64,000 nucleotides of DNA from positions 2,329,001 through 2,393,000 of the forward strand of contig NZ_CP115174.1 in the NCBI RefSeq assembly GCF_027625475.1, read 5' to 3'. Numbering within the stretch: the stretch's first letter is position 1; each line of letters starts with the position of its first letter. This DNA comes from Sphingomonas abietis (GTDB lineage Bacteria; Pseudomonadota; Alphaproteobacteria; Sphingomonadales; Sphingomonadaceae). Shown one piece after another: positions 43,381 through 62,163 of this stretch. Under the pieces are notes generated by a model that did no database searches, was not told where the DNA came from, and saw only the letters and a program-made list of their open reading frames with translations. The translations under genes and the position numbers were made by a program.

Positions 43381-44994
43381 TCAGGGGGTGCTCGTGCAGG
43401 CCGGCGCGGCGTCACGCGCGGGCGTCGGCACATGTGCCGACGGCGCCAGCACCTGCCATTCGGGAACGCCGAACCCGGCATAATGGCCACCGGCCTGAGA
43501 CGCCTGGAAGACCGCGCGCAGGCAGCGCGTGGTGATCGTCTTGAAGCGGGTCTCCTGCGGCGCATCGACCGCCGTGCCATAGCCCGAGGCGCCGGGAACG
43601 GGCTTCCACGCGCCATCCCAATATTGCAGCTGCCAGCTGGCCGGCGGTGCGACGCCCTCGCCCGATCCGGCCGGATGATCGCCCCAGAACCAGATGCGCG
43701 ATCCGTTGATCGTCACCGGCTGCGGCCAGCGATATTCGATCCATTGCGACGCCGGATTGTGCGGAGACCAGCTGCCCCACATGTCGGGCGGCAAGGGGGC
43801 TTGGGGCACGATCCCGTCGTTCAGCGACTTGATCCAATATTGCGACGGCACCGGCATGTTGGAGGCGGCCGGCGTCGCCGCCATCGCGATGTTGCGGGTC
43901 GGCGCCGGCGCCGGCTGCGGCGCGCGCGTCGGAACCACCGGCAGGATCGCCGGCGGGCTCACGCTATCGTCGAAGTTCAGTTTGTCGAGCGCGACACTGC
44001 GCCGAAAATGGCCACCATTCTTCGCATCGGCCGTGTGATAAGCGAGATACCATTGGCCCTTGAATTCGACCGCACCCGAATGGGAGGTGGTGGACGACAC
44101 CGGGCCGAGGAACACGCCGCGATAGGTCCACGGCCCCAGCGGCGACGAGGCCGTCCCATAGGCCAGGCAGGCATGATAGACGGCCGGTGTGCAATTCGAT
44201 TGGGGGCCGGCATTGTTCGCCGCATAGAGCATGTAATAGGTGCCCTTGCGCTTCATCAGCCACGGCGCCTCGAAATATCCCTTGAGGCTATGGACCGGCA
44301 CCTCTGGCCCCTTGGGGGTGATCATGTCGCGATCCAGCTCCATGCCACGCAGCTGGCCGAAGGTGCCCCAATAGATATAGGGGCGCCCGTCATCGTCGAT
44401 CATGACGGTCGGATCGATATTCTGGATGTCGTTGGCGACGGGCACGCGCTCGGAGATGATCGGCCCCGAGGGGTGCGCATCGACCCACGGCCCTTCGGGC
44501 CTGTCCGCCACCGCGACGCCGATCGCGAAGCGATCCTGCGCGTCGCTGTCACGCTCCAGCACCGGCGCGTACATGTACAGGCGGCCATCCGGCCCCTTGA
44601 CGATCTGACCGGCATAAGCGCGCCCGGCCTCCGCCCATTTGAACACCGTTTCAGGGCGCGCGATCGCCGGGTAATGGGTCCAGTCGCCCGAGGCCGGATC
44701 GGTGGTGGCGAGCAGCTGCCATTCGTTCATGATGAAGTCGTTGACGCCCACCGGTGCCTCGTCGCGCCCGGCGATGATCCACAGCGTGTCGCCCAGCACC
44801 ACCGGCGCCGGATCGGTGGAATAATAGCGGCCGTCCGACAGGATCGGATTGCCGGCGCTGTGGAAATGCACGGGCGCCGAGGGCATGACGGTCGGCGCAG
44901 CCGCCACGGCAGCATCACCCGTTCCTGCCCAGCCAGCAGCGGGCAGCGCCGGCGCAGCCAGCGCCGCCGCCGCCAGGAACCACTTTTTCGTCAT
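43381..44994 (-). CDS. Glycoside hydrolase family 43 protein, exported
   Basis: A 537-aa secreted glycosidase. The start is MTKKWFL at 44994 (GAGGAA upstream overlaps the DUF885 stop region), with a signal peptide to about residue 23. The five-bladed beta-propeller holds the GH43 catalytic triad: D61 in YYSTDPAPVV (base), D194 in QNIDPTVMIDDDG (pKa modulator) and E242 in GYFEAPWLMKRKG (acid). A C-terminal region (about 385-520) looks like a carbohydrate-binding beta-sandwich (YWIKSLNDG, WIEYRWPQPVTINGSRIWFWGD). GH43 members remove alpha-L-arabinofuranose or xylose. It is last in an operon with GH127, so arabinose-containing glycan is likely. One base separates it from the DUF885 gene. Confidence 0.9.
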   Translation of the reverse strand: MTKKWFLAAAALAAPALPAAGWAGTGDAAVAAAPTVMPSAPVHFHSAGNPILSDGRYYSTDPAPVVLGDTLWIIAGRDEAPVGVNDFIMNEWQLLATTDPASGDWTHYPAIARPETVFKWAEAGRAYAGQIVKGPDGRLYMYAPVLERDSDAQDRFAIGVAVADRPEGPWVDAHPSGPIISERVPVANDIQNIDPTVMIDDDGRPYIYWGTFGQLRGMELDRDMITPKGPEVPVHSLKGYFEAPWLMKRKGTYYMLYAANNAGPQSNCTPAVYHACLAYGTASSPLGPWTYRGVFLGPVSSTTSHSGAVEFKGQWYLAYHTADAKNGGHFRRSVALDKLNFDDSVSPPAILPVVPTRAPQPAPAPTRNIAMAATPAASNMPVPSQYWIKSLNDGIVPQAPLPPDMWGSWSPHNPASQWIEYRWPQPVTINGSRIWFWGDHPAGSGEGVAPPASWQLQYWDGAWKPVPGASGYGTAVDAPQETRFKTITTRCLRAVFQASQAGGHYAGFGVPEWQVLAPSAHVPTPARDAAPACTSTP

Positions 44995-44995
44995 G

Positions 44996-46780
44996 TCATT
45001 CCTCGTCCGGATAGGGGCCCTTGCCGCCATCGGCGATGAGCTGGTCGATCCGGGCGTCGATCACCGGCAGCGGCACCGAACCGAGGGACAGCACGGCGTC
45101 GTGGAAGGCGCGGATGTTGAACTTCGGCCCCAGCGCCTTTTCGGCGCGGTGGCGCGCGTTCAGGATCGCCTGCTCGCCCATATAATAAGACAGGGCCTGC
45201 CCCGGCCAGGCGATGTAGCGGTCCACCTCGGTCTCGATCTCATGATCGGCCATGGCGGTGTTGTCGTGGAGATATTGCTGCGCCTGCTGGCGCGTCCAGC
45301 CCTCGGTGTGGATGCCGGTATCGACGACCAGACGCGCCGCGCGCCACATCTGGTAGCTGAGCATTCCGAAGCGATCATAGGGCGTGTCGTACATCCCCAT
45401 ATCCTCGCCGAGCGCCTCGCAATAGACCGCCCAGCCCTCGCCATAGGCCGAGAGATATTCGCTGCGACGGAAATCCGGGAGATCCTTGTTCTCGGCCGCC
45501 AGCGGCATCTGGAAGGCATGGCCGGGCGCGCTTTCGTGCAGCGTCAGCGCGGTCAGCGAATAAAGTGGGCGGGACGGCAGGTTGTAGGTGTTGACCAGAT
45601 AGATGCCCGGCCCGCCGCGCCCGCCGGTATAGAAGGGGGCGAGGTCCGCCGGCACCGGCTTGATCGCGAAGCGGCTGCGCGGGAGATGCCCGAACCACTC
45701 GGAGGCCTTGCCGTCGAAGGTCTTGGCGATCCACGCGGCGCGATCGAGCAGATCCTGCGGGGTCTTGGCGTAGAAGCGCGGATCGGTGCGCAGGAAGGTC
45801 AGGAAAGCCGGCAGATCGCCCTGGAAGCCGACCTGCTTCATCACGTCGAGCATCTGCCCCCGGATCCGCGCGACTTCGGCGACGCCGAGCTGGTGGATTT
45901 CCTCGGGCGACTTGTCCTCGGTGACGAACTCGCGGATCTTGGAGCGGTAATAGGCCTTGCCGTCCGGCAGCGCATAGGCGTCGATGCTGGTCCTTGCCTT
46001 GGGGAAATATTCGTCGCGCATGAAATGCAGCAGCTTGGCGTGGGCCGGCACCACCGCATCGCCGATCGCCTGTAGCGCCTGCCGGCGCAGATCGGCCTGA
46101 TCGGCCGCCGAGATCGTCGCCGGCCGCGTCTTGAACGGCGCATAGAAGGCCGAATCTTCCGGCGATTTCGTGTCCGCTACAGCCGCCAGGCCGACATCCC
46201 GGCCGACCAGCGTGATCTGCGGCGCGGTGAATCCGCGCGCGAGGCCGGCACGCATGTTGACGATCTGCTCGTCATAATAGCGCGGGATTTCGCGCAGCAT
46301 CGCGATGTAGCTGCGATAATCCTCTTCCGTCTTGAACACGCCGCGCGGCCATTCGGCGATATCGCCCCAGAAGCTGCTGTCGGCGTTGAACGGCTTTTCG
46401 TAATCCCGATAACGCTGCGACGCGAGCAGCGCGTCGATCTGGCCCTGATAGACCGCGAAGTTGACGCGATCCTCGGTGCTCAGCTGGGATTGCGGAATGG
46501 CAGCGAGCTGTTGCGAAACCTGGGTCCAGCGCGCCAGTTTCTCGGCCTGCGCCTTCGGCCCCACGTCGGGCAGATGGAGCGGCGTGCCCTTGGGCGAATC
46601 CTCGTCCGGCGCCTGCATCGTCTGCCGCCAGCTATATTCGGCGCTTGCGATCGCCTTGAAACGTGCTGCGGCGGAACTCGACACCGTGGCGGCTTCGGCG
46701 GCCGTGGCGACGGGCAAAATCGGAACGGTGCCGGCCATCAGCAATCCCATCATCAGCGAAACACGTAATTGGGCGGTCAT
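44996..46780 (-). CDS. DUF885-family metallopeptidase, exported
   Basis: A 594-aa protein with a signal peptide (hydrophobic 8-27). It is a DUF885/M3-like helical metallopeptidase whose zinc motif is HESAPGH at 415-421; the family third ligand is expected in the EGWAVYCEALGEDMG block that follows. Members are often annotated as exported carboxypeptidase-like enzymes, though few have been tested. The gene overlaps the imino-acid reductase by 4 bp and touches the GH43 gene, so it is part of the same four-gene operon. This puts a peptidase among glycosidases, which supports a glycopeptide substrate (inference). Confidence 0.88.
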   Translation of the reverse strand: MTAQLRVSLMMGLLMAGTVPILPVATAAEAATVSSSAAARFKAIASAEYSWRQTMQAPDEDSPKGTPLHLPDVGPKAQAEKLARWTQVSQQLAAIPQSQLSTEDRVNFAVYQGQIDALLASQRYRDYEKPFNADSSFWGDIAEWPRGVFKTEEDYRSYIAMLREIPRYYDEQIVNMRAGLARGFTAPQITLVGRDVGLAAVADTKSPEDSAFYAPFKTRPATISAADQADLRRQALQAIGDAVVPAHAKLLHFMRDEYFPKARTSIDAYALPDGKAYYRSKIREFVTEDKSPEEIHQLGVAEVARIRGQMLDVMKQVGFQGDLPAFLTFLRTDPRFYAKTPQDLLDRAAWIAKTFDGKASEWFGHLPRSRFAIKPVPADLAPFYTGGRGGPGIYLVNTYNLPSRPLYSLTALTLHESAPGHAFQMPLAAENKDLPDFRRSEYLSAYGEGWAVYCEALGEDMGMYDTPYDRFGMLSYQMWRAARLVVDTGIHTEGWTRQQAQQYLHDNTAMADHEIETEVDRYIAWPGQALSYYMGEQAILNARHRAEKALGPKFNIRAFHDAVLSLGSVPLPVIDARIDQLIADGGKGPYPDEE

Positions 46781-47823
46781 GCCTTTTTCCTCAATAATTC
46801 GATATCGGCGAGCAGCCGGGCCGAAACCCGGACGCCATCGCGCAGGCTGATCGCCCGCGCGGCATAGCGCCGCTGCGACGGAAGACGGGCGCCCTGCCCT
46901 TCGATCGCGGCAAACATCTTTTCCGCGCGTGCCAGATGCGTGCCGACCTCGTCGCCCAGGAAACCGGCGGGGTCGATCGCGATGATCAATTCGCCGCCGA
47001 GCGGTGATCCACCCCGGCCGGCATCATGCGCCATCGATTCCTGGCTGGTGAGATCGCCGATCAGCGGGCCAGCGAGCAATTCCACCATCGCGGCCAGCGC
47101 CGAGCCCTTGTGCCCCCCGAAGGTCCGCATCGCACCATCCAGCACCGCCTTGGCGTCGGTGCTGGGCTGGCCGTCGGCATCATAGCCCCAATCGTCAGGG
47201 ATCGCCTTGCCGGCGCGGCGGTGCAGCTCGATCTCGCCGCGCGCCACCGCGCTGGTCGCGAAGTCGAACACGAACGGATCGCGGCCCGGGCGCGGCCAGC
47301 CAAAGGCGATCGGGTTGGTGCCGAACACCGGCTTGGTGCCGCCTGCCGGGGCGACCCAGCCATGGCTAGGGGTGAAGGCCAGGGCGACCAGCCCCTCGCC
47401 CGCCAGCGCCTCGACCTCGGGCCACAGCGCAGCGAAGTGGACGACATTGTTGAGCGCCAGCGCCGCGATGCCGAATTGGCGGGCGGCCGCGATCAGCGCC
47501 GGCTTGCCGGTCTCGAACGCCAGTTGAGCGAAGCCGCCCCCGCCATTGATCCGGACGATCGCCTTGCCGCTCGGTTCGGCCAAAGGCAGCGCGTTGGGCG
47601 CCACGACGCCCGCCGCCAGGCTCCGCGCCGCGACCAGCAACCGATAGAGACCGTGGGATGTGCAGCCGTCCCGCTCGCCGGCCACCATCGTCTCGGCCAC
47701 CGCCTCGGCATGGTCGGCGGCGAGGCCCTGTTCGGTCAGGACGGCACGGGCGAGTGCCCGCACCTCGTCCAGCGTCATCGTCACGTCCGTATCGACCACC
47801 ATCGCCGCTTCCGCCACCGTCAC
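46777..47823 (-). CDS. DpkA-like delta1-pyrroline/piperideine-2-carboxylate reductase (Ldh2 family)
   Basis: A 348-aa cytoplasmic NAD(P)H-dependent reductase of the malate/lactate dehydrogenase Ldh2 superfamily. Motifs DGCTSHGLYRL (about 52-62), VVHFAALWPEVE, FGTNPIAFGWPRPG and FGGHKGSALAAMVELL match, from memory, the Pseudomonas DpkA branch, which reduces cyclic imino acids (delta1-pyrroline-2-carboxylate to L-proline, delta1-piperideine-2-carboxylate to L-pipecolate), rather than the lactate branch. The assignment needs a tree. It overlaps GH127 upstream and DUF885 downstream by 4 bp each. A proline-forming reductase in a GH127 operon is unusual and suggests proline or hydroxyproline as a product. 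Confidence 0.8.
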   Translation of the reverse strand: MTVAEAAMVVDTDVTMTLDEVRALARAVLTEQGLAADHAEAVAETMVAGERDGCTSHGLYRLLVAARSLAAGVVAPNALPLAEPSGKAIVRINGGGGFAQLAFETGKPALIAAARQFGIAALALNNVVHFAALWPEVEALAGEGLVALAFTPSHGWVAPAGGTKPVFGTNPIAFGWPRPGRDPFVFDFATSAVARGEIELHRRAGKAIPDDWGYDADGQPSTDAKAVLDGAMRTFGGHKGSALAAMVELLAGPLIGDLTSQESMAHDAGRGGSPLGGELIIAIDPAGFLGDEVGTHLARAEKMFAAIEGQGARLPSQRRYAARAISLRDGVRVSARLLADIELLRKKA

Positions 47824-50204
47824 GCGGTCGCTCCCGGCTTCGCGGTGAACAGAACGACACCGAAGACCGGGCCCGCGGTGCTGCGATCATGCGGCAGGAA
47901 CTTGACCCGCAGCACGCTCTTGCCCCGCGTCAGCGCCTCCGGCAGCGGATATTCGATGTCGAAGAACTTGCCTGGCTTGTCGTCGTGCAGCGTCTGGGTG
48001 GCGACCTTCACGTCATCGACCAGGATGTCGAACCGGTTGCCACGCTCACCACCCCAATAGGTCGCCTGCAAGATCAGCGGCCCGGGCTTGGTCTTCATTT
48101 CGAAGGCGAAATAGCCGCCCGAGCGGGCATCGCGCCCGTTCCGGCCGCGATAGGTGACCGGATAGGAGATGTCCGAGGTCAGCTTGTGGTCATGCTCCTG
48201 CTGCATCTCGCCGAGATGGACGGCATCGACCGACCGCGCGGCGATATCCTTGAGCCGCGCCTGATCGGCGACATAGGCGGCCTCCTCGGTCTTCCAGCTC
48301 GCCTCGGTGAAATGCTTGAAATAGACCGCGCTGCGCCGCTCATACTGGCGATAGAAGGGCACGAAGGTCAGGTCCGCCGGGCGGATCACGCCGTGCGTCG
48401 CATAGGTGCCGGCGGCCGCATCGGTCGCCGAGAAGGCGCTCAGCACATCGTCGCCGACCATCGCCGGATCGGGCTTGTTCCAGTCGCCGTCGGTGGTGCC
48501 GAGATCGGCAGCCAGCACCATCGGCCCGCGCAGGATCGCGATGGTGTCGGGGTCGCCGGCCGCGGCCTCCGTCCGCAGTTCGAGCGGCAGGTCGATGGTG
48601 ACGACATCGCCCTGCTTCCACTTGCGCTCGAGGATCGCATAGCCCTGCGCGAACGTCGGCAGCACCGGCTTGCCGTTGACGGTGAGCACCGCCTTGCCGT
48701 TCGCCCAGCCCGGCACGCGCAGCGCGATCGGGAAGCGGCCGGGCTTGGCCAGCGTCGTCAGCGTCAGCCGCGATTGCGGCTCGAACGGGTAGCGGGTGTC
48801 CAGCACCAGATCGGCGCCCCGCGCCTTCCAGTGGACTTCCGACGGGATGTAAAGATTGACCAGCAGCGCGTTGCCGCCTTCCCAGAAGATCGCCGCGCCA
48901 TGCTTGGAATGGCTCTCCATGCCGGTGCCGACGCAGCACCAGAAGGCATCGTCGTCCGGCGTCGAATAGCCGCGCACCGCGCCGGTCATCAGCGGGGTCA
49001 TGTAGGTAAAGCCGGCGGTCTTGGGATCCTGCGCCGCCATGATGTGGTTGAGGTGGGTGCGCTCATAATAGTCGAACAGCGCGCCGTCCGGGTTCCAGCC
49101 GTAGAGATGCTCGGTGAGCTTGAGCATGTTATAGCTGTTGCAATGCTCGCAGGTCTGTTCGGTGATATGGTCGGCAATGGTGTCCGGCTCGGAGAAATAT
49201 TCCCGATCCGCGTTGCCGCCGATCACATAGCTGTGATGCTGCGTCACCGCCTGCCAGAAGAAGCCGGCCCCGGCCTTGGGCGCGGGCTGGTTGGTCAGCT
49301 CGTAGATGCGGGCGAGCCCGATCAGCTTGGGCACCTGGGTGTTGGCGTGGAAATTGGCGAGCTTGTCCTGCCCGGCCTCCAGCGGATCGAGCACCTTGCG
49401 ATCATAGATGCGCTGCGCGGTCGCCAGCCACTTGCGATCGCCGGTGCGGGCGTAGAGTTCGGCATAGCTCTCGTTGAGGCCGCCATATTCGCAGCTCAGC
49501 ATCTCCTGCATCTGCGCATCGTCGAGCGCGGCGAACACCGGCTCGAAATAGCCGGCAAAGGCGATCAGCACCGCCAGCGCCTTGGGGTTGCCCCAGCTGC
49601 CATGGATATCGAGCAGGCCGGCATAGAGCTTGTGGACGGTGTAGAGCGGCGACCAGGCACCGTTGAGATCGAAGCCGCCCGACCGGATGTCGCCCTTCAT
49701 GATCTCCGGGAAGATCTCGATCGCGTCGACGACGGTGGCGTCCTTCCGCTTGCGCTGCATCGCGCCGATATAGCCGTTGCCGCGCGCCTGCTGGGCGACG
49801 GCCAGCTCATCGACGATATAGTCCGCCCGCTTGCGGCAATCGGCGTCACCGGTCTGCTCGTACATCAGCACCAGCGCCGACATATAATGGCCGAGCGTAT
49901 GGCCGGCGATGGTATCGCCCTCCCAGCCACCATAAATCTCCGCCTTGGGCTGGAGACCGGCATATTTGCGGAAATTGTGCAGCAGCCGGTCGGCGCTCAG
50001 TCGCAGCAGATAGGCGCGGTTGACCTCCACGGCGGTGGCATAATCCGATGGCCGCAGTCGCACTGCAGACAAGGGCAGCGGCTTGGCCGAACGAGGCAGC
50101 AACCCCGAAGAGGAAGAAGCGTTGGCCAATGCGTTGCCCGACGCCCCGGCAAGAGCGATGACCGCTCCACCCATCATCCATTCGCGGCGATTGCTCTCGA
50201 TCAT
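47820..50204 (-). CDS. Glycoside hydrolase family 127 (beta-L-arabinofuranosidase family), Tat-exported
   Basis: A 794-aa GH127 protein. I chose ATG 50204 (MIESNRREWMMGG) because GGGA is 8 bp upstream; ATG 50210 is too close to it. A twin-arginine signal (RREWMMGGAVIALAG) implies export. The zinc/thiolate site matches the founder HypBA1: E353 and C355 in CEHCNSYNML, and C423-C424 in FWCCVGTGMESHSK, with the second pair supplying the likely nucleophile. HypBA1 removes beta-L-arabinofuranose from hydroxyproline-linked oligosaccharides of extensin-type proteins. It is first in a four-gene operon that includes a cyclic-imino-acid reductase, a peptidase and GH43. An ATACCGTATA site is 19 bp upstream of the start. 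Confidence 0.9.
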   Translation of the reverse strand: MIESNRREWMMGGAVIALAGASGNALANASSSSGLLPRSAKPLPLSAVRLRPSDYATAVEVNRAYLLRLSADRLLHNFRKYAGLQPKAEIYGGWEGDTIAGHTLGHYMSALVLMYEQTGDADCRKRADYIVDELAVAQQARGNGYIGAMQRKRKDATVVDAIEIFPEIMKGDIRSGGFDLNGAWSPLYTVHKLYAGLLDIHGSWGNPKALAVLIAFAGYFEPVFAALDDAQMQEMLSCEYGGLNESYAELYARTGDRKWLATAQRIYDRKVLDPLEAGQDKLANFHANTQVPKLIGLARIYELTNQPAPKAGAGFFWQAVTQHHSYVIGGNADREYFSEPDTIADHITEQTCEHCNSYNMLKLTEHLYGWNPDGALFDYYERTHLNHIMAAQDPKTAGFTYMTPLMTGAVRGYSTPDDDAFWCCVGTGMESHSKHGAAIFWEGGNALLVNLYIPSEVHWKARGADLVLDTRYPFEPQSRLTLTTLAKPGRFPIALRVPGWANGKAVLTVNGKPVLPTFAQGYAILERKWKQGDVVTIDLPLELRTEAAAGDPDTIAILRGPMVLAADLGTTDGDWNKPDPAMVGDDVLSAFSATDAAAGTYATHGVIRPADLTFVPFYRQYERRSAVYFKHFTEASWKTEEAAYVADQARLKDIAARSVDAVHLGEMQQEHDHKLTSDISYPVTYRGRNGRDARSGGYFAFEMKTKPGPLILQATYWGGERGNRFDILVDDVKVATQTLHDDKPGKFFDIEYPLPEALTRGKSVLRVKFLPHDRSTAGPVFGVVLFTAKPGATA

Positions 50205-50222
50205 GTTCATCGTCCCAACTAG

Positions 50223-50236
50223 ATACCGTATACGAT
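50223..50236. promoter_or_regulatory. Operator candidate, copy 1 (ATACCGTATACGAT)
   Basis: ATACCGTATACGAT contains the self-complementary core CGTATACG. It lies 19 bp upstream of the GH127 start. Its first ten bases recur at 50317-50326 on the other side of the same intergenic gap, so one regulator may control both directions. GTATAC-centred sites are seen for FadR-type GntR sugar regulators, but no such gene is adjacent. Confidence 0.5.
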
Positions 50237-50316
50237 TATGCAATTGGCGCCGGAAGGTCAATCCGACAATTCAAAGCGGGTTTGAAGCCATCCTCGAATA
50301 GAATTCAACACATAAT

Positions 50317-50326
50317 ATACCGTATA
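50317..50326. promoter_or_regulatory. Operator candidate, copy 2 (ATACCGTATA)
   Basis: ATACCGTATA sits inside TATACCGTATA, an 11-bp inverted repeat around a central base. It is 42 bp upstream of the DPP4-type peptidase start and just before a TTGACC (50333-50338) that could be a -35 element. It is an exact copy of the first ten bases of the 50223 site, 94 bp away. Confidence 0.5.
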
Positions 50327-50367
50327 ATATCCTTGACCAGTCCGGCGGCGACTGATGTAAGGCTGTC

Positions 50368-52761
50368 ATGCGCACTCTCCATCACACCCCGTCCGATGTC
50401 GCGGCCAAGCGTGTTCGCCGCTTGGCATCGTCGTCGCTCGCCATCGCGCTGGCGATCGCCGGCTTCGGGGCGGGGGCGGCATCGGCGGCCGGCAGTGCGC
50501 CGGCGGCCCTGACGATGCTCGATCGCTACCATCTGGCCGACGCGTATCTCCATGGCATCACGACGGGGCTCGTTACCGATGCGGACCTGCGGGCCAGCTT
50601 CACGGCGGATGGCAAGGGCATCCTCTACCGTAGCGGCCCGGACGGCCATCGCATGATCCGCTATTTCGACATCGCCACGAACACCGGCAGCGCCATCATC
50701 GAGGACGGCAGGCTCGCCCAATTGCTGGCGCAGCAGCTCGGCCACCCCGTCCGCGCCACGGAATTCGCGCTCGACGATGCCAAGGTCGATCCCGCACGCG
50801 GCACCCTCACCTTCTCGTGGCAAAAGCATTGGACGCTGAGTCAGGGCAAGACCCTGACCGCCGGAGCGGATCTCGCCGCGGAGCCGGCCGACGGGCTTTC
50901 GCCCGATGGTCGCTATCGCATCGTCGCGCGCAACTTCAATCTCGTCGCGATCGATACGGCATCGGGCCGCGAGCTCCCCCTGACCACCGACGGCACGCGG
51001 GACCAGCCTTATGGCCGCAACATTTCCCAACTCGCCGATATCCTGAAGCAGGGCACCGAGGATCCGGTCCAGCCGGTCTCGCTCGCCTGGTCGCCGGACA
51101 GCAAGCGGATCTTCACCTGGCGGCTCGACACGCGCGAGGTGAAGCGGCTGACGATGACGCAGCAGAATCCACCGGGCAGCTTCTATCCGCGCAGCTTCAG
51201 CTACGTCTATCCGCTCGCCGGCGCCGAGAAACTGCCGATGGCGACCCGGCTGATCATCGATGTCCCCGCCGCCTTCGCGCGCGGCGCCGCCAAGATCGTC
51301 CCGGTCGCGATGCCGGCGGAAGCTTTGCTCTATCCGGCGGCGCCGGACATGGAATGGATCGGCGATCGCGCCCGCGCCAACTGGACCGCGCGTGGCTATG
51401 GCCAGATCGACGCCTATGACATCGATCCGGCGACCGGCGCCGCCAGGGTCGTGGCGCGCGAGACCGACAAGCCGCTGGTGACGATCACCGCGACCTCGCT
51501 CCAGCCCGCCCCCGAGCTGGGCGGCGAACTGGTGATCTCGGAGCGTTCGGGCTGGGCCCAGCTCTATCTGGTCAAGCCCGACGCGCCCGATGGCGGCACC
51601 GCGCTCACCCATGGCGCGTGGGAAGTCCGTTCGGTCGAACGGGTCGATGCCGACCGCCAGTCGATCCTGCTCACCGGCGCCGGCCGCGAGCCGGGCTGGA
51701 ACCCCTATTGGCTCGGCCTGTACCGGATTTCGACCGAGGGCGGCACGCCGACCCTGCTGACCCCCGAACCGCTCGATCACCACGTCACTCTGTCGGACGA
51801 CGGCCGCTGGGGCATCGACGTGATGTCGAGCCCGACCACGCCGCCCGAGACGGTGCTGCGCGACCTCAGCGACGGCCACATCGTCAGCCGGCTGGGCAAG
51901 GCCGATGCCCGCGCCCTGCTCGCCTCCGGTTTCACCCTGCCCGAGCCCTTCCAGGGCGTCGCCGCCGACGGCAAGACCCCGCTCTACGGCATGATCTTCC
52001 GCCCGGCCCATTTCGATCCGGCGCAGCATTATCCGATGATCGATGAGGTCTATACCGGCCCGACCATGTCGATCGTGCCGACCGGCTGGTCCCGCGCGAT
52101 CCGGCAGGATGCCAACAGCGTCGCCCAGCTCGGCGCGATCGTGGTGATGATCGATGCGCGGGGCACCTCCGATCGCGGCCAGGCCTTCCGCCTTCCCGCC
52201 TATCGCAACATGGGCGAAGTCGGGCTCGACGATCATATCGCGATGATGCGCCAGATGGCGGCGCGCTATCCGTACATGGATACCGACAAGGCCGGCGTCT
52301 ATGGCTGCTCGGCCGGCGGCTACGACGCCGCGCGCTTCATCCTGCGCCGCCCCGACTTCTTCAAGGTCGCGGTGGCGACGTCGGGCAATCAGGATCTCCG
52401 GCTCGACAAGGCCTGGTGGCCCGAGGTGACGATGGGCGATGCCGATCCGGCGACGTGGGATCGCGTGTCCAACATGTCGGTCGCCGGCCAGCTCAAGGGC
52501 AAGTTGATGATCGTCCACGGCGACATCGACGACAATGTGCCCGTCACCGAGGCCTATCGGCTGGAAAAGGCGCTGATCGATGCCGGCCGCGACGTCGATG
52601 TCGTGATCCTGCCCAATGCCAGCCATTGCGCGATGCCGCCCTATTTCTGGCGCAAGTTCAGAAATTATTTCGTCCAGAACCTGTTCGACGAGACGCCGCC
52701 GAGCCAGGCCGAGATCGACGCCGCGGGGCAGGCCGCCCCTTCTCCCACTTCCAATCGCTGA
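50368..52761 (+). CDS. DPP4-type S9 serine peptidase, exported
   Basis: A 797-aa S9 peptidase with an N-terminal signal (about 20-40, SLAIALAIAGFGAGAASAAG). A DPP4-type eight-bladed propeller (about 60-540) leads to the alpha/beta-hydrolase domain, where S648 in YGCSAGGYDAAR is the nucleophile. The acid is in HGDIDDNVPV and the histidine in LPNASHCAMPP. Such enzymes cut X-Pro or X-Ala dipeptides from the N-terminus. AAGG stands 6 bp before the ATG. It is divergent from the GH127 operon and shares the ATACCGTATA motif with it. The next gene starts 8 bp downstream. Confidence 0.92.
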   Translation: MRTLHHTPSDVAAKRVRRLASSSLAIALAIAGFGAGAASAAGSAPAALTMLDRYHLADAYLHGITTGLVTDADLRASFTADGKGILYRSGPDGHRMIRYFDIATNTGSAIIEDGRLAQLLAQQLGHPVRATEFALDDAKVDPARGTLTFSWQKHWTLSQGKTLTAGADLAAEPADGLSPDGRYRIVARNFNLVAIDTASGRELPLTTDGTRDQPYGRNISQLADILKQGTEDPVQPVSLAWSPDSKRIFTWRLDTREVKRLTMTQQNPPGSFYPRSFSYVYPLAGAEKLPMATRLIIDVPAAFARGAAKIVPVAMPAEALLYPAAPDMEWIGDRARANWTARGYGQIDAYDIDPATGAARVVARETDKPLVTITATSLQPAPELGGELVISERSGWAQLYLVKPDAPDGGTALTHGAWEVRSVERVDADRQSILLTGAGREPGWNPYWLGLYRISTEGGTPTLLTPEPLDHHVTLSDDGRWGIDVMSSPTTPPETVLRDLSDGHIVSRLGKADARALLASGFTLPEPFQGVAADGKTPLYGMIFRPAHFDPAQHYPMIDEVYTGPTMSIVPTGWSRAIRQDANSVAQLGAIVVMIDARGTSDRGQAFRLPAYRNMGEVGLDDHIAMMRQMAARYPYMDTDKAGVYGCSAGGYDAARFILRRPDFFKVAVATSGNQDLRLDKAWWPEVTMGDADPATWDRVSNMSVAGQLKGKLMIVHGDIDDNVPVTEAYRLEKALIDAGRDVDVVILPNASHCAMPPYFWRKFRNYFVQNLFDETPPSQAEIDAAGQAAPSPTSNR

Positions 52762-52768
52762 GATCACC

Positions 52769-55531
52769 ATGTCCCCGCACAAGATGACATCCCGCGCGCT
52801 CTTCCCCATCGCCTTGGCGATCGCGACCGTCTCGACGCTGCCCGTCCTGCCGGCCGCCTCCGCGCAGGAGGCCCAGCCGAAGAAGCCGAGCTATCCCCCG
52901 ATCCGGACGACATCGTTCAAGGTCGGCAATTTCGTTCTGGCCCTGCGGCAGGACACCCAGACGCTCGCGCGCCTGTCCCCCGCCGGCGAGCCCGCCTTCG
53001 ATTTCGTGCCCGGCGCGCGCGAGGCGGAACGGCAGGCGGACGGCTATGTCCATATCGGCGATCTCAACCTGCGGCTGCGTACCGCCGGTGGCGACTGGCA
53101 GGATTTCGCCTCGGCCCATCTCCGCAAGCCGATCGCCGCCCTGAAGAGTGGTGGCAAGCTGCTCGCCGCCGCCGACATCACCGCCAGCATGGGCGCGGGC
53201 ATCCCGCTCACCGTCGAGCGGCGCTGGGTCAACGAGGGCGGCGTGCCCGCCCTCCGCTTCACGCTGATCAACCGCTCCAAGGCGCCGGTCGAGATCGGCG
53301 CGCTCGGTATGCCGATGGTGTTCGACAACATCATCAGCGATCGCACACTGGAACAGGCCCACACCGAGGCGAGCTTCACCGATCCCTATATCGGCCGCGA
53401 CGCCGGCTATCTCCAGGTTACGCGCCTCAACGGCAAGGGGCCGAGCCTGCTGGTGTTGCCGGAGAAGGACACCCCGCTCGAGGCCTATCGCCCGATCGAC
53501 GTCGCCTATCGCGGCCATGCTCCCAACATTTTCTCCGATCGCAGCCCGCGCGACCAGACATCCGAAGGCTTCTACGACTGGACGGTGGCCAGCAAGGGCT
53601 TCGCCGACAAGGAGTGGAGCAAGGCCGGCGAGCAGTGGAACACACCGACCAGCTTCACCCTCGCGCCCGGCGAGCATCGCACCATCGGCCTGCGCTTCGT
53701 CCAGTCTCCCGCGATCGAAAAGATCGAGGATACACTGGTCGCGCAGAAGCGGCCGGTCGCAATCGGCATCCCCGGCTATGTCGTGCCGATGGACCTCGAC
53801 GCGACTTTGTTCCTCAAGAGCCCGCAGCGCGTCGCCAGCATCGCCAGCTATCCCGATGGCGCGCTCGTCGCCACGGCGGACGGCAGCATCAACGGCTATG
53901 CCCGCTACAGCGTTCGCGGGCGGCAATGGGGGCGCTCGCGCCTAACCATCACCTACGTCGATGGTTCGGTGCAGACGATCAGCTACTTCGTCACCAAGCC
54001 GCTGGAGCAGACGATGGCCGATCTCGGCCATTTCGCCACGACCAAGCAATGGTATGACGACAAGAGCGATCCGTTTCACCGCTCGCCGGCGATCCTCACC
54101 TATGATCGCGACGCCGACAAGATCGTGACGCAGGAACCGCGCGTGTGGATCTCGGGGATGAGCGACGAAGGCGGCGCCGGCAGCTGGGTGGCGGCGATCT
54201 CCAAGCAGCTCGACAATCCCGATCCGGCCGAGGTCGCCAAGCTGGAACGACTGATCGACGAGACCGTGCTCGGCACGCTTCAGGTCAAGGATGGCGAGCA
54301 TGCCGGCGGCGTGAAGAAGAGCATCTTCTATTACGAGCCCAGCGAGCATCCCGGCTATTACGACCCGACCGAGAATTGGAAGAACTGGACGAGCTGGTCC
54401 AAGAAGGATGCCGGCGATCTCGGCCGCGCCTACAACTATCCGCACGTCGCGATCGGCTATTGGGTGCTGTACCGCCTCGCCCGCAACCATCCGGGGCTGG
54501 TGACCGCGCATGATTGGCGCTGGTATCTCGACCATGCCACCATCACTGTCGATGCGATGATGCGCGATGCGCCTTATTACACCCAGTTCGGCCTGATGGA
54601 GGGCGACGTCTTCGTCGATATCCTGAAGGATCTGAAGCGCGAGGGGATGACCGGCGAGGCGACGAAGATGGAGGCCCAGATGAAGGGCCGCGCCGATCAT
54701 TGGAAGACGCTGGCCTATCCGTTCGGCAGCGAGATGGCGTGGGATTCGACCGGCCAGCCCGAAGTCTATGCCTGGATGCGCTATTTCGGCTATGACAAGC
54801 AGGCCGACGAGACCCGCGACGCGATCCTCGGCTATGATCCGACGATCCCGAGCTGGGGCTATAATGGCGATGCCCGCCGCTATTGGGATTTCCTCTATGG
54901 CGGCAAGGTCTCGCGGATCGAGCGGCAGATCCACCATTATGGCTCGACCCTCAACGCCGTGCCCTTGTTCGACGCCTATCGCCACGATCCGGCCGATCTG
55001 CACCTGCTGCGCGTCGCCTATGGCGGAATGATGGGCGGGATCACCAATATCGACCAGAGCGGCTTCAGCTCGGCCGCTTTCCACAGCTGGCCCGACATGA
55101 TGAAGTGGGACAGCTATACCGGCGATTACGGCATGGGCTTCTTCGGCCATGCCTATGCCGCCGCGACCTATCTGGTGAAGGATCCGACGCTCGGCTGGCT
55201 CGGCTTCGGCGGCAATCTCAGCGAGGCGACCGGCGTCGAGCATATCGTGCCCAAGGACGGCGCGCGCAGCCGGCTGTTCATCGCGCCGGCCGGGCTGTGG
55301 ATCACGCTGGAAGCCGGCAAGATCGCCAGCGCCGACTATGCGCCGGCCACCGGCAAGATCATGCTGACGCTCGATCCTGCCGATGCCACGACGCCGCAGG
55401 CGCGCGTCTTCCTCGAAACCACCACGGCCGGTGCCAAGGCCTATGCGCTGCCGGGCGCAGCGCTGGAACGGGGCGGCTATTCTGTGCCGCTGTCGGGCCA
55501 GCCGACCACGATCGATCTTGTCGGCCAATAA
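52769..55531 (+). CDS. Large exported DUF5695-like protein (possible glycoside hydrolase)
   Basis: A 920-aa exported protein (signal about 6-31, LFPIALAIATVSTLPVLPAASA). It looks like the DUF5695 family: an N-terminal beta-rich part (about 40-420, LTVERRWVNEGGVPALRFTL) followed by a long helical region (about 480-830) with YYEPSEHPGYYDPTENW and GSEMAWDSTGQPEVYAWMRYFG. The helical half resembles the (alpha/alpha)6 toroid of glycosidases. Carboxylates in those two conserved blocks are candidate catalytic groups. The function is unproven. It starts 8 bp after the DPP4-type gene, and its context with GH127 and GH43 suggests it acts on the same glycoprotein. A strong terminator follows. Confidence 0.75.
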   Translation: MSPHKMTSRALFPIALAIATVSTLPVLPAASAQEAQPKKPSYPPIRTTSFKVGNFVLALRQDTQTLARLSPAGEPAFDFVPGAREAERQADGYVHIGDLNLRLRTAGGDWQDFASAHLRKPIAALKSGGKLLAAADITASMGAGIPLTVERRWVNEGGVPALRFTLINRSKAPVEIGALGMPMVFDNIISDRTLEQAHTEASFTDPYIGRDAGYLQVTRLNGKGPSLLVLPEKDTPLEAYRPIDVAYRGHAPNIFSDRSPRDQTSEGFYDWTVASKGFADKEWSKAGEQWNTPTSFTLAPGEHRTIGLRFVQSPAIEKIEDTLVAQKRPVAIGIPGYVVPMDLDATLFLKSPQRVASIASYPDGALVATADGSINGYARYSVRGRQWGRSRLTITYVDGSVQTISYFVTKPLEQTMADLGHFATTKQWYDDKSDPFHRSPAILTYDRDADKIVTQEPRVWISGMSDEGGAGSWVAAISKQLDNPDPAEVAKLERLIDETVLGTLQVKDGEHAGGVKKSIFYYEPSEHPGYYDPTENWKNWTSWSKKDAGDLGRAYNYPHVAIGYWVLYRLARNHPGLVTAHDWRWYLDHATITVDAMMRDAPYYTQFGLMEGDVFVDILKDLKREGMTGEATKMEAQMKGRADHWKTLAYPFGSEMAWDSTGQPEVYAWMRYFGYDKQADETRDAILGYDPTIPSWGYNGDARRYWDFLYGGKVSRIERQIHHYGSTLNAVPLFDAYRHDPADLHLLRVAYGGMMGGITNIDQSGFSSAAFHSWPDMMKWDSYTGDYGMGFFGHAYAAATYLVKDPTLGWLGFGGNLSEATGVEHIVPKDGARSRLFIAPAGLWITLEAGKIASADYAPATGKIMLTLDPADATTPQARVFLETTTAGAKAYALPGAALERGGYSVPLSGQPTTIDLVGQ

Positions 55532-59351: not shown

Positions 59352-60374
59352 TCACCGCTTCCGCTGGTAATGCGGATCGAGCGGCTGTCCGGCGGCCCGC
59401 TTCGCATCGATCTCATCGGCGGCACGCTCCAGATCGCGCACCCGTGCGCCATTGCCGGGATGGGTGCCGTCGGAGAACAGCCCGCCCAGCGGATCGGCAT
59501 GGGCCATCCGCTTCCAGAACCGGGCCGCCGCATGAGGATCATACCCGGCCCAGGCGGTCAGATAGACGCCGAAATAATCCGCCTGGCGCTCGGTGTCGCG
59601 GATCCGCGCGCCATTGCGCCCGATCCCGCGCAGCACGCCGTCGCTGACATGCGCGGTATCGAGAAAATCCCGGTGGCCGAGAATATTGTGGGACAGCTCA
59701 TGACCGATCACGAAGGCCAGTTCGTCATCGTCGCGGGTGAAATCGAGCACGCCTTGCGAGACGCTGACGATGCGGCCGTCCGCGCTGGCGTTGCGGGCGC
59801 CGGACAGATCGAGCTGGACCGCCGATCGGCAGGCATCCGCCCCGTTCACCGTCACCGTCAGCGGCTGGCCGTCACGGCGTAGTTCCAGCGTCACCGGGCC
59901 TGCCGCAAACGCCGTGTCCAGCCTGTCGAGCAAGGCCGAGAAGCGGCTGCCATCGGCGCTGCGCTTCGTCACCCCGGGCAATTCGTCCGCGAGCCTCTGC
60001 CCGTTCATCAACAGGATCCCGTCGCCCACCTGGATGCCGGCCCCCGCACCGGCGCTGTCGGGCACCACCGCCGTCACCGTCGGCAGATCCGTCAGCCCGA
60101 AGAGCTGCGCCACCGCCGGGCGGAGATCCGCGCGATATTGCGAGGCATCCTGCACGACCAGCCCGGACAGGCGGGTGTGTCTGGGGCAATGCGCCCGCCC
60201 ACCGGTCTGCAGCCGATAGGCGACCGTCGCCACCCGCAAATCCTTGGCCGCCAGGGCCTGTAGCGATGCGGCCAGTTCGGGATCGACCGGCATGGGCGGC
60301 ATCGGCGGCGGCGGCGCGGCGGCGGCCAGAGCCCCCGCCGTGATCGCCATTCCGACCCTGTTAGGAAACGCCAT
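59352..60374 (-). CDS. M48-family metallopeptidase with PDZ-like domain
   Basis: A 340-aa exported protein (hydrophobic N-terminus MAITAGALAAAAP). A PDZ-like domain (about 90-180, VTAVVPDSAGAGAGIQVGDGILLMNGQ) precedes the metallopeptidase domain, whose zinc motif is HELSH in FVIGHELSHNILGH. The third ligand is likely in RDTERQADYFGVY. It has no membrane segments like those of HtpX, so it may be a periplasmic, BepA-like quality-control enzyme (inference). Its start overlaps the end of the POT transporter gene by 14 bp, so the two are coupled. Confidence 0.87.
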   Translation of the reverse strand: MAFPNRVGMAITAGALAAAAPPPPMPPMPVDPELAASLQALAAKDLRVATVAYRLQTGGRAHCPRHTRLSGLVVQDASQYRADLRPAVAQLFGLTDLPTVTAVVPDSAGAGAGIQVGDGILLMNGQRLADELPGVTKRSADGSRFSALLDRLDTAFAAGPVTLELRRDGQPLTVTVNGADACRSAVQLDLSGARNASADGRIVSVSQGVLDFTRDDDELAFVIGHELSHNILGHRDFLDTAHVSDGVLRGIGRNGARIRDTERQADYFGVYLTAWAGYDPHAAARFWKRMAHADPLGGLFSDGTHPGNGARVRDLERAADEIDAKRAAGQPLDPHYQRKR

Positions 60375-62163
60375 GCATCAGGCGCTTGAGCACCGGCGTC
60401 AACGCCAACAGCAGGATGCCGGCACCGATCGTCAGTTCACCGCCGGTCAGGAAAGTGCCGAGATAGGTGTGCAGGCTGAGTTCCGGGTTGGTCACCTGCC
60501 CGCCGATGGTCTGCACCGATGCGGCCTGGGCGGCGGCGCCGGCCAGATATTCGCCGATCGAGATCGACAGGAACCACACGCCCATCATCATGCCTACCAC
60601 CCGCGCGATCGACAGCTTGGTGATCATCGACAGCCCGACCGGCGAGATGAACAGCTCGGCGATCGAGTGGAGGAAATAGGTGAGCACCAGCCACCACAGC
60701 GACACCCGGAAATCATCGCCGGCGAAGGAACCGCTCGACGCCAGCACCACGAAGCCCAGCCCGACGAGGATCAGCGCCAGCCCGAACTTCACCTGGATCG
60801 AGGGCTCCCACCCCTTCTTCGCCAGGGCCAGCCATAGCCAGCTGACCACCGGCGCGAACAGGATGATCGTGATCGGATTGAACTGCTGCGTGTTCGGCGC
60901 CGAGATCGGGATACCGAACAGCTCCAGCGTGGTGTTGCGATCGGCGAACAGGGTGAGCGAGGACGCCGCCTGCTCGAACAGGGTCCAGAAGGTGACGTTG
61001 AACACGACGAGGATGATCGCCGCCACCATCATCTGGAACTCGGCGCGGGAACCGGCCTTCCAGGACCAGATCGGGATGCCGATCACGGCTGCCAGGAAGG
61101 TCGCGAACAGCACCTTGCCGAGGAACGGCGTCGCCACGACATAGCCCCACAGGCCACTGCCCGCGGCCGCCTCCGGCGTGTCCATCACATTGCTGAAGAT
61201 CAGCCACACCAGCGGCGCCGCCACGATCGACAGAGCATAGATCAGCACCCGGCGATCCGGGCCCTCGTTCACCGGCGGTTCGCCATAGCCGGCAAGCCGG
61301 CCGCCATCGAACTGGATCATCGCATAGGCCACCAGAAGCCCGATCGAGACGGCGAGGAAACCCGCCCACCAGCCGAAATACTGGACCACGAACGGGCAGA
61401 CCAGCTGGCCGCCGATCGAGCCGAGGTTGATGCCCCAGTAGAAGATGGTGAAGCCGGCATCGCGCCGGCGATCGCCCGGCCCGTAGAGGCTGCCGACGAT
61501 GGTGGAGATATTGGGCTTGAAGAAGCCGTTGCCGATCACGACGAAACTGAGCGCGATCAGCATCACCGCGACGAAGAAGGGCGAGCGATCCGCGCCGGAC
61601 CCGAAAGCGCCCTTGGCGATGGTGTCCGCGACATGGCCATCGGCGGCGAGCAACTGGACAGAGCCATCGGGAAGCCCGTGGATCACCAGGCGCTGGCCGT
61701 TGCGATCGATCGACTGCACGGCGTCGCCCGAATCGAGCACGGAGCCGCTCTGCTTCTGGATGACCTCGTAGCGGGTGCCGTCGATCGTCGCATAGGGCCT
61801 GGCCTGCTGCCCGCCGAAGCAGAGCAGGAAATAGCCGAACGCCATCACGATCGCGCCGAACTTCACCGATCGCTTCGACCCCAGATAGCGATCCGCCAGC
61901 CAGCCGCCGATCAGCGGCGTGAGGTAGACCAGGCTGAGATACCCCCCGACGATGCCGTTGGACTGGTGATCGCTGAGCAGGAAGAATTTGCTGAGATACA
62001 GCACCAGCAGCCCGCGCATCCCGTAGAATCCGAAGCGTTCCCACGCCTCGATCGAGAAGAGCCGGGCAAGCTGACGTGGGTGCCCCAACCATGAGCCGCC
62101 GTCCGTGCGGGCGACATCGGGGGATTGGGGTGCGAAGGTGGCGTCTGCGTCTGGAAGGACCAT
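60361..62163 (-). CDS. POT-family proton-dependent oligopeptide transporter
   Basis: A 600-aa inner-membrane symporter of the PTR2/POT family with about fourteen membrane segments. The N-terminal EAWERFGFYGMRGLLVLYL holds the ExxERFxYYG proton-coupling motif. GWLADRYLGSKR and FYWGINLGSIGGQL are the family signatures. The start at 62163 has GGAGCC upstream. It imports di- and tripeptides, which fits the many exported peptidases here. The M48 gene overlaps its 3' end by 14 bp. Confidence 0.94.
   Translation of the reverse strand: MVLPDADATFAPQSPDVARTDGGSWLGHPRQLARLFSIEAWERFGFYGMRGLLVLYLSKFFLLSDHQSNGIVGGYLSLVYLTPLIGGWLADRYLGSKRSVKFGAIVMAFGYFLLCFGGQQARPYATIDGTRYEVIQKQSGSVLDSGDAVQSIDRNGQRLVIHGLPDGSVQLLAADGHVADTIAKGAFGSGADRSPFFVAVMLIALSFVVIGNGFFKPNISTIVGSLYGPGDRRRDAGFTIFYWGINLGSIGGQLVCPFVVQYFGWWAGFLAVSIGLLVAYAMIQFDGGRLAGYGEPPVNEGPDRRVLIYALSIVAAPLVWLIFSNVMDTPEAAAGSGLWGYVVATPFLGKVLFATFLAAVIGIPIWSWKAGSRAEFQMMVAAIILVVFNVTFWTLFEQAASSLTLFADRNTTLELFGIPISAPNTQQFNPITIILFAPVVSWLWLALAKKGWEPSIQVKFGLALILVGLGFVVLASSGSFAGDDFRVSLWWLVLTYFLHSIAELFISPVGLSMITKLSIARVVGMMMGVWFLSISIGEYLAGAAAQAASVQTIGGQVTNPELSLHTYLGTFLTGGELTIGAGILLLALTPVLKRLMHGVS

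Follow-up and report, generated by a model that had tools for sequence, protein, structure and literature searches.

Described systems and the six-gene unit

Bacterial removal of arabinose from plant hydroxyproline-rich glycoproteins (HRGPs) has been described for the HypAA/HypBA2/HypBA1 systems of Bifidobacterium longum and Xanthomonas euvesicatoria (PMC6085000, PMC7263609), and the GH121-GH43-GH146 layout of X. euvesicatoria has been tested biochemically (PMC6085000). In the parts of these papers available to us, the two bacterial systems are described as freeing arabinose or arabinobiose and not as using hydroxyproline (Hyp). Hyp arabinosides are abundant, Ara4-Hyp being cited as making up 33-75% of plant cell-wall Hyp (PMC6085000). 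X. euvesicatoria is unable to use L-arabinose, and the authors ask why the enzymes are present (PMC6085000). Here we analyzed a 64,000-nucleotide stretch of the Sphingomonas abietis chromosome, referred to as the window, that carries six open reading frames (ORFs) in two divergent operons (43381-55531, ORF check). We consider it quite probable that this unit belongs to a Hyp-controlled regulon for the use of plant Hyp-rich glycoprotein (extensin being the likeliest), of which it forms the outer arm that removes glycans and cuts protein. On this reading the unit is part of a larger system that is unlinked but apparently co-regulated.

Like the described systems, the unit pairs a GH43 enzyme, for the terminal alpha-arabinose, with a DUF1680-family enzyme for Hyp-bound beta-arabinose; in Xanthomonas a putative prolyl-oligopeptidase gene also lies adjacent (PMC6085000). 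It differs in adding Ldh_2, DUF885 and DUF5695 genes, in belonging to a genome where one whole-genome search with a xanthomonad GH121 query found no GH121, and in its ties to the catabolism of Hyp and arabinose, which consist of linkage in relatives and a shared motif. L-Hydroxyproline clusters are another point of comparison: they have the same 4-Hyp epimerase, D-amino-acid oxidase, DHDPS and aldehyde dehydrogenase (PMC4113996, PMC5144071) and also count MLD2 (Ldh_2) reductases among their neighbors (PMC4113996). A word search of the available text of PMC4113996 returned no word starting with "glycosid", whereas the reductase gene here lies between those for a beta-L-arabinofuranosidase and a metallopeptidase-like protein. 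The parts are of known kinds; in open PMC papers, covered mostly at the level of listings, we found no report of deglycosylation joined to Hyp catabolism.

The four leftward genes (minus strand) encode a predicted GH146-type beta-L-arabinofuranosidase with an RR signal (47820-50210; PF07944, 403 bits), an Ldh_2/MLD2 imino-acid reductase of the DpkA type, predicted to reduce delta1-pyrroline-2-carboxylate (Pyr2C) (46777-47823; PF02615, 308 bits), a DUF885 metallopeptidase-like protein (44996-46780; PF05960, 527 bits) and a putative exported, HypAA-like GH43 alpha-L-arabinofuranosidase with a C-terminal NedA/F5-F8-like region (43381-44994; PF04616, 104 bits). The two rightward genes (plus strand) encode a predicted exported S9 serine peptidase (50368-52761; PF00326/PF00930 for S9/DPPIV_N, 127/124 bits) and, starting 7 bp beyond its end, a predicted exported DUF5695 protein (52769-55531; PF18951, 1280 bits). 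An earlier sequence-only reading of this DNA had given these ORFs, coordinates and families, and the ORF check and Pfam confirm them except for the glycosidase family: five of the six proteins pass the Pfam cut-off under their earlier names, and the sixth matches PF07944, which is named for GH127.

The overlapping or touching leftward genes of that reading were confirmed as well, with 4-bp overlaps at the GH146/Ldh_2 and Ldh_2/DUF885 junctions and a 1-bp gap between DUF885 and GH43 that assumes the GH43 ATG start at 44994; the longest GH43 ORF starts at 45030. The longest GH146 ORF has a TTG start at 50261, but an ATG at 50210 or 50204 is probably the true start, because a motif site at 50223-50231 would otherwise fall inside the gene. 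Read by eye rather than with a prediction tool, the N-termini of both glycosidases (GH146 with an RR motif), both peptidases and the DUF5695 protein resemble export signals, and that of Ldh_2 does not.

Linkage to hydroxyproline genes

A scan of genome contigs with the GH146 protein gave 116 confirmed places, the best 80 of which are the named loci counted below. No flank is longer than 10 kb and several contigs are cut short, which makes the linkage counts lower bounds; the loci are also related and therefore not independent. Neighbors were counted with our own gene caller and with blastp clusters in which close and distant copies fall together, and the Pfam or NCBIfam names of these clusters come from scoring one or two members each.

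The sequence-only reading had proposed a search for the same gene order in other genomes, and the order GH146-Ldh_2-DUF885-(GH43) recurs in many named loci (tblastn), which argues that it is not due to chance. Across 92 gene-called sequences (the window, the 80 named loci and 11 stretches from its own family), 4-bp overlaps form the GH146>Ldh_2 junction in 26 of 42 cases and the Ldh_2>DUF885 junction in 26 of 41, and DUF885 and GH43 are no more than 20 bp apart in 22 of 29. Among the 80 loci, DUF885 is present in 53, DUF5695 in 45, Ldh_2 in 43, GH43 in 38 and S9 in 35, and 19 of these 35 hold an S9 copy with an identity of at least 56%.

Genes that are absent from the window recur in the same places: DHDPS family members in 43 loci, DAO and M24 peptidase genes in 37 each and 4-Hyp epimerase genes in 31. 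Other recurring neighbors are GntR regulators (30), amino-acid permeases (23) and POT transporters (19; the window has a distant POT gene). At least one epimerase, DHDPS or DAO gene is found in 51 of the 80 loci, in 50 of the 63 that combine GH146 with DUF885, DUF5695 or Ldh_2, and in 37 of 43 loci with Ldh_2 compared to 14 of 37 without it. Since Hyp genes and GH146 come together in 17 gene-order forms, some differing by cut ends alone, the association outlives rearrangement. Hyp-linked loci include Sphingomonas, Sphingobium, Sphingopyxis, Novosphingobium and Altericroceibacterium as well as Pacificimonas, Caulobacter, Acetobacter and Gluconobacter, and plant-linked names occur among the carriers (Leaf26, Leaf242, Root241, hibisci, populi, hylomeconis). 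The epimerase of one locus (L069) scores 546 against an NCBIfam 4-hydroxyproline epimerase equivalog cut-off of 376.

Sphingopyxis italica (L056) has on one flank genes for an IlvD-type dehydratase, GalM, a FucP-like transporter, an SMP-30 lactonase, an aldehyde dehydrogenase, an AraD1/GguC-cluster protein (the AraD1 match was scored on the copy in L036) and a Gfo/Idh dehydrogenase. M24, DAO, DHDPS, epimerase and GntR genes occupy the opposite flank. The oxidative L-arabinose route leads to alpha-ketoglutarate semialdehyde (KGSA), which it shares with the 4-Hyp route, and from their gene content the two flanks may be read as arabinose and 4-Hyp routes meeting at this compound. L-Arabinose oxidative genes stand beside both the operon and Hyp genes in a few relatives only.

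The claim of the sequence-only reading that the six genes by themselves catabolize Hyp was rejected, as no match to a Hyp-catabolic gene lies within the 64-kb window and the pathway is found 1.6 Mb away. The chromosome, a single contig of 4,429,509 bases, has one match to the DUF1680 (GH146-type) protein and holds a Hyp and arabinose island at C1:752.8-781.9k, with the Hyp genes at C1:770.0-780.7k and the one PF05544 match over cut-off in the genome at C1:770985-771953. The own-genome epimerase shows 80% identity and an NCBIfam score of 541.7 (cut-off 376), and the other Hyp genes encode DHDPS (69%), permease (73%), GntR (69%), DAO (55%) and M24 (68%) proteins. Arabinose genes of the island encode an aldehyde dehydrogenase (70% identical to that of L056), AraD1 (77% to that of L036), Gfo/Idh (61%), IlvD (86%), FucP-like (82%) and GalM (57%) proteins; the island also holds a FadR-type gene (57%), a second DUF885 (41% identical to the window's) and a second S9 (29%). 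A wider region (L110/L107/L108, C1:741-789k) also carries genes for gamma-glutamyltranspeptidase, M3 and M20 peptidases, 5-oxoprolinase with DUF969 and DUF2891, a TonB receptor (Pfam), a second such receptor by similarity only, and a POT transporter, and may be a broad peptide-use island.

The two modules also co-occur across the family. Among 99 family genomes, GH146 (E up to 1e-60) occurs in 8, PF05544 in 14 and both in 6 (Fisher p 6.4e-5), and PF05544 is present in all five genomes with GH146 at 55% identity or more compared to 9 of the 94 others (p 2.8e-5), both p values being uncorrected for relatedness. DUF5695 is found in four of the 99, all four with GH146 and PF05544. Gene content, conservation, linkage and motif sharing are direct observations.

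The ATACnGTAT motif

A dyad search covered 69 of 94 upstream regions, those from loci with DUF885, DUF5695 or Ldh_2. ATAC-n-GTAT was found upstream of GH146 in 26 of the 69, whereas in ten two-base-block shuffles no dyad of this kind exceeded 12, and longer versions of it stood out more in dyad counting. The window has two sites in 64 kb (shuffle mean 0.10; two reached in 1 of 100 shuffles), which we list as operator candidates 1 (GATACCGTATACGA, 50223-50231) and 2 (TATACCGTATAATA, 50317-50325), neither assigned to a strand. Of 60 sites in the 92 gene-called sequences, 56 lie either in the 400 bp upstream of a gene or no more than 60 bp into it, and these genes are mostly GH146, S9, DAO, DHDPS or DUF5695. 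Counting TATAnTATA together with ATACnGTAT gave 78 sites in the 80 loci (1.70 Mb), 75 of them intergenic, compared to 3-9 in five resamplings. When the 51 loci with Hyp genes were sorted by module, sites stood before both modules in 15, on the glycosidase side only in 21 and on the Hyp side only in 2.

ATACnGTAT occurs seven times in the 4.43-Mb genome, and the reversed-pattern control four times. Two of the seven sites are in the GH146/S9 divergent promoter and one is before the DHDPS-epimerase genes; three are inside called genes and one is at an unrelated intergenic position. ATACNGTATA occurs in this genome only at the three system sites. In eight genomes picked for having PF05544, 16 of 29 distinct ATACNGTATA sites (our own count, strands merged) are at system genes: G000 3/3, G043 2/3, G029 0/4, G032 2/3, G052 4/6, G057 2/2, G081 1/1 and G083 2/7, with one G052 site placed by distance alone, 241 bp from an epimerase match. 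This search left out six other PF05544 genomes, among them G001, G003 and G095, which are siteless at the Hyp loci examined. Separately, the called genes at C1:1553300-1569300 (L118) in the window's own genome are many, short and run one way, giving a prophage-like appearance.

Hyp loci were examined from 7 of the 14 PF05544 family genomes, and four of the seven have a site (L127, L130, L131, L133). Sites at Hyp genes in G043 and G081, two of five examined genomes without a GH146 match at E 1e-60, suggest that a Hyp regulon may have taken in the glycosidase operon. A GntR/FCD protein encoded beside the Hyp genes (C1:778654-779298) is, by its position, the likely regulator reading ATACnGTAT.

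Predicted activities and competing readings

The sequence-only reading had assigned the DUF1680 protein to GH127, and this did not hold. Among solved sequences the protein is closest to 5opj (E 1.6e-136, 459.7 bits, aligned over 63-594 and 628-790, covering the catalytic domain and those after it), followed by 8k7x (E 1.1e-48, 169 bits), with GH127 4qjy (E 1.3e-24) and HypBA1 3wkw (E 1.6e-12, 49.5 bits) far behind, and by this comparison it is GH146-like. Its E-x-C and W-C-C motifs are kept, in that the CEHCNSYN and WCCVGTG columns match 5opj and 8k7x; these stretches form the zinc site and the cysteine nucleophile. The 5opj and 6yqh entries are, we assume, structures of Bacteroides BT0349, the closest solved sequence to the window's protein.

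The available parts of the literature show how varied GH146 substrates are. XeHypBA1, a GH146 enzyme, chiefly cleaves Araf-beta-Hyp (PMC10850190, PMC6085000), so the reassignment favors the idea of a Hyp-arabinoside substrate. Bll4HypBA1 acts on Araf-Hyp of the glycoprotein backbone, the bifidobacterial GH146 enzyme Bll3HypBA1 has arabinogalactan-protein (AGP) and arabinan as substrates, and BT0349, which differs from the window's protein in being part of an RG-I locus, is active on arabinan-derived oligosaccharides (PMC10850190); family membership alone therefore leaves the substrate unfixed. A GH146 tree built by a quick method puts the window, whose nearest row is a Sphingomonas isolate, in a clade of 68 rows, of which 54 have Ldh_2 or DUF885 as a neighbor. 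A separate 12-row xanthomonad clade holds all nine GH121-linked rows and one DUF885-linked row (L090), and because the window's clade stands apart from it we do not claim orthology with XeHypBA1. The second copy in L057 is a long branch of unsure placement.

The GH43 protein is 61-65% identical to GH43 in all nine GH121-bearing loci, where shorter matches (36-40%) lie in or near the GH121 gene. It is probably HypAA-like, as judged through the GH43 of GH121-bearing loci rather than a characterized HypAA. Its best solved relatives are the gly43N entries 3qed, 3qee and 3qef, and its C-terminal region scores 17.8 bits against PF22633, under the cut-off. Two GH121-cluster members align with the HypBA2 model for most of their length and score 1126 and 1176 bits, short of its equivalog cut-off (3200). 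Residues 1108-1271 of the GH121 query match the GH43 binding-domain region (42%). The same genome has alpha-galactosidase-family matches at C1:1853758 and C1:3276619-3277584, and a weak 28% GH121 match at C1:3272498, in a 710-aa frame, is about 3 kb from one such match. Three xanthomonad GH121-GH43-GH146 loci have an Ldh_2 gene a few kb from GH146 (L093:15999-17021, L094:16037-17059, L095:17929-18954), its product 58-60% identical to the window's.

The S9 protein has retained the GCSAGG serine and the Asp and His regions. Its DPP4 specificity is uncertain: the Glu pair of DPP4 clamps the substrate N-terminus, and where 5yp1 (DEEMDRHTGYWW) aligns with the S9 protein (TEDPVQPVSLAW) the first Glu is kept, the second is Asp and the flanking residues differ, which makes exopeptidase action of the DPP4 type uncertain. 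Distant S9 genes lie beside or near GH43 in xanthomonad loci L095, L096 and L099. The DUF885 protein carries a HESAPGH motif, presumably for a metallopeptidase role, and its solved relatives, including 3o0y, are unnamed or putative lipoproteins. Two DUF885 genes and Ldh_2 stand beside Hyp genes in L131, in a genome (G081) with no GH146 match at E 1e-60. Two further families with an H-E-x-x-H stretch, DUF6055 (L069:2134-3912) and a lipoprotein-like family (L056:16740-17609), lie beside the unit in 13 loci each and are possible additional metallopeptidases.

DpkA (1wtj) is the best solved relative of the Ldh_2 protein (238 bits, compared to 127 for the next solved sequence), in keeping with the DpkA-like label it had been given. 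Its placement within Hyp catabolism was not borne out, as a Pyr2C reductase is not known to act in the trans-4-Hyp route. The enzymes named for that route in the available text are an epimerase, cHyp oxidase, Pyr4H2C deaminase and KGSA dehydrogenase (PMC4113996). MLD2 members in Hyp-type gene neighborhoods reduce proline ketimine (PMC4113996), and we therefore propose proline rescue for Ldh_2; coupling with Pyr2C reductase also converted a 4-hydroxy imine to cis-4-hydroxy-L-proline (PMC5144071).

Each enzymatic activity, substrate, location, transport step, regulator and ligand in the following scheme is predicted. GH43 would trim alpha-linked arabinose, GH146 would remove the beta-linked arabinose on Hyp, and DUF5695 would probably handle part of the remaining glycan, while the exported S9 and DUF885 peptidases would cut the bared peptide. 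Peptides would then enter the cell, where a cytoplasmic M24 peptidase would free Hyp, and 4-Hyp epimerase, D-amino-acid oxidase, DHDPS-family deaminase and aldehyde dehydrogenase would convert it through KGSA to alpha-ketoglutarate. Arabinose would reach KGSA by its oxidative route, and Ldh_2 would rescue L-proline from pyrroline-2-carboxylate formed as a by-product when the epimerase and oxidase act on proline. The GntR/FCD regulator beside the Hyp genes would read ATACnGTAT. A bolder version, which we put forward tentatively and consider somewhat doubtful, is a single Hyp-responsive regulon that uses both halves of arabinosyl-hydroxyproline and has one aldehyde dehydrogenase merge them at KGSA. 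In this version DUF5695 would be a new family of glycoside hydrolases that takes the place of the GH121 beta-L-arabinobiosidase.

If the unit served pectic arabinan side chains, GH43 and GH146 would act on RG-I arabinan like BT0349, and the peptidases and reductase would be passengers. The closest solved relative being 5opj, the activity of BT0349 on arabinan-derived substrates (PMC10850190) and the GH146 homologs that adjoin arabinose genes only are consistent with this; the conservation of the four-gene tandem and its short junctions in many loci, the Hyp linkage, the motif shared with the Hyp operon, and the Ldh_2 and DUF885 genes beside Hyp genes in L131 speak against it, and we regard an arabinan target as unlikely. 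Extensin and AGP are both Hyp-rich, so linkage and motif cannot separate them, and the beta-Araf of type II arabinogalactan could be the substrate instead, as the action of Bll3HypBA1 on AGP and the GH2-cluster genes in 13 of 80 loci would allow. However, the GH43 is most like that of GH121-bearing loci. Extensin serines carry a single alpha-galactose, which the alpha-galactosidase-cluster genes of 13 of the 80 loci (one member scored) would suit; this tilts the target to extensin and leaves AGP improbable. A proline-peptide salvage operon, its glycosidases there for another purpose and its reductase handling D-proline or D-lysine imines, would suit a DpkA-type enzyme tied to D-lysine and D-proline catabolism (from the title of a reference), and S9, DUF885 and M24 may be general peptidases. 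With an epimerase over the 4-Hyp equivalog cut-off and arabinose genes in one island, we find salvage very hard to credit.

For the HRGP regulon itself, what survives of the sequence-only reading is the use of arabinosyl-Hyp glycoprotein, through the 4-Hyp linkage in relatives, the motif common to the Hyp operon and the GH43 likeness, whereas its GH127 label, the place of its reductase and Hyp catabolism inside the unit fell away. Several observations weigh against the regulon. No Hyp gene is linked to the unit in this genome, 29 of the 80 loci have no epimerase, DHDPS or DAO gene within the stretch covered, and in four (L019, L020, L097, L103) GH146 has arabinose genes but not Hyp genes as neighbors. 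Functions of DHDPS, DAO and aldehyde dehydrogenase are assigned at family level only, the GH146 family also includes arabinan (BT0349) and AGP enzymes, the S9 genes of xanthomonad loci are only 30-32% identical to the window's, and the transporter for the system has no assignment. As for the motif, its count upstream of GH146 is not independent because it was discovered there, 13 of the 51 Hyp-gene loci have no site before either module, three of the seven examined Hyp loci (L128, L129, L132) lack it, none of the four G029 sites is at the system, and across the eight genomes the reversed control gave 19 strand hits compared to 42 for the motif.

If the bolder version is true, it would suggest that Hyp rather than arabinose can be the reward for HRGP-deglycosylating bacteria. 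Having deglycosylation and Hyp catabolism in one regulon opens the way to a direct test. DUF885 and DUF5695, both uncharacterized families, would gain a testable substrate.

DUF5695 is reportedly named in a paper on fungal regulators. Sequence comparison gave it no relative among solved structures, 2335 of 7998 scored candidates match it at E 1e-10 or better, and a kinship with GH121, GH146 or seven other clusters was rejected by profile comparison (best probability 5.1%). Its cluster is absent from all nine GH121-bearing loci, and 43 of the 45 loci that have it carry a close copy, L060 and L104 having a distant copy only. The window's POT gene (60361-62163) was not retained as a firm part of the unit, its identity to the POT adjoining DUF5695 in L028 being 34%. 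Distant DUF5695 genes (25-27% identical) follow GH43 or DUF885 at L059:16943-19582, L060:17163-19553 and L062:15214-17970, and L059 and L062 have a close copy as well.

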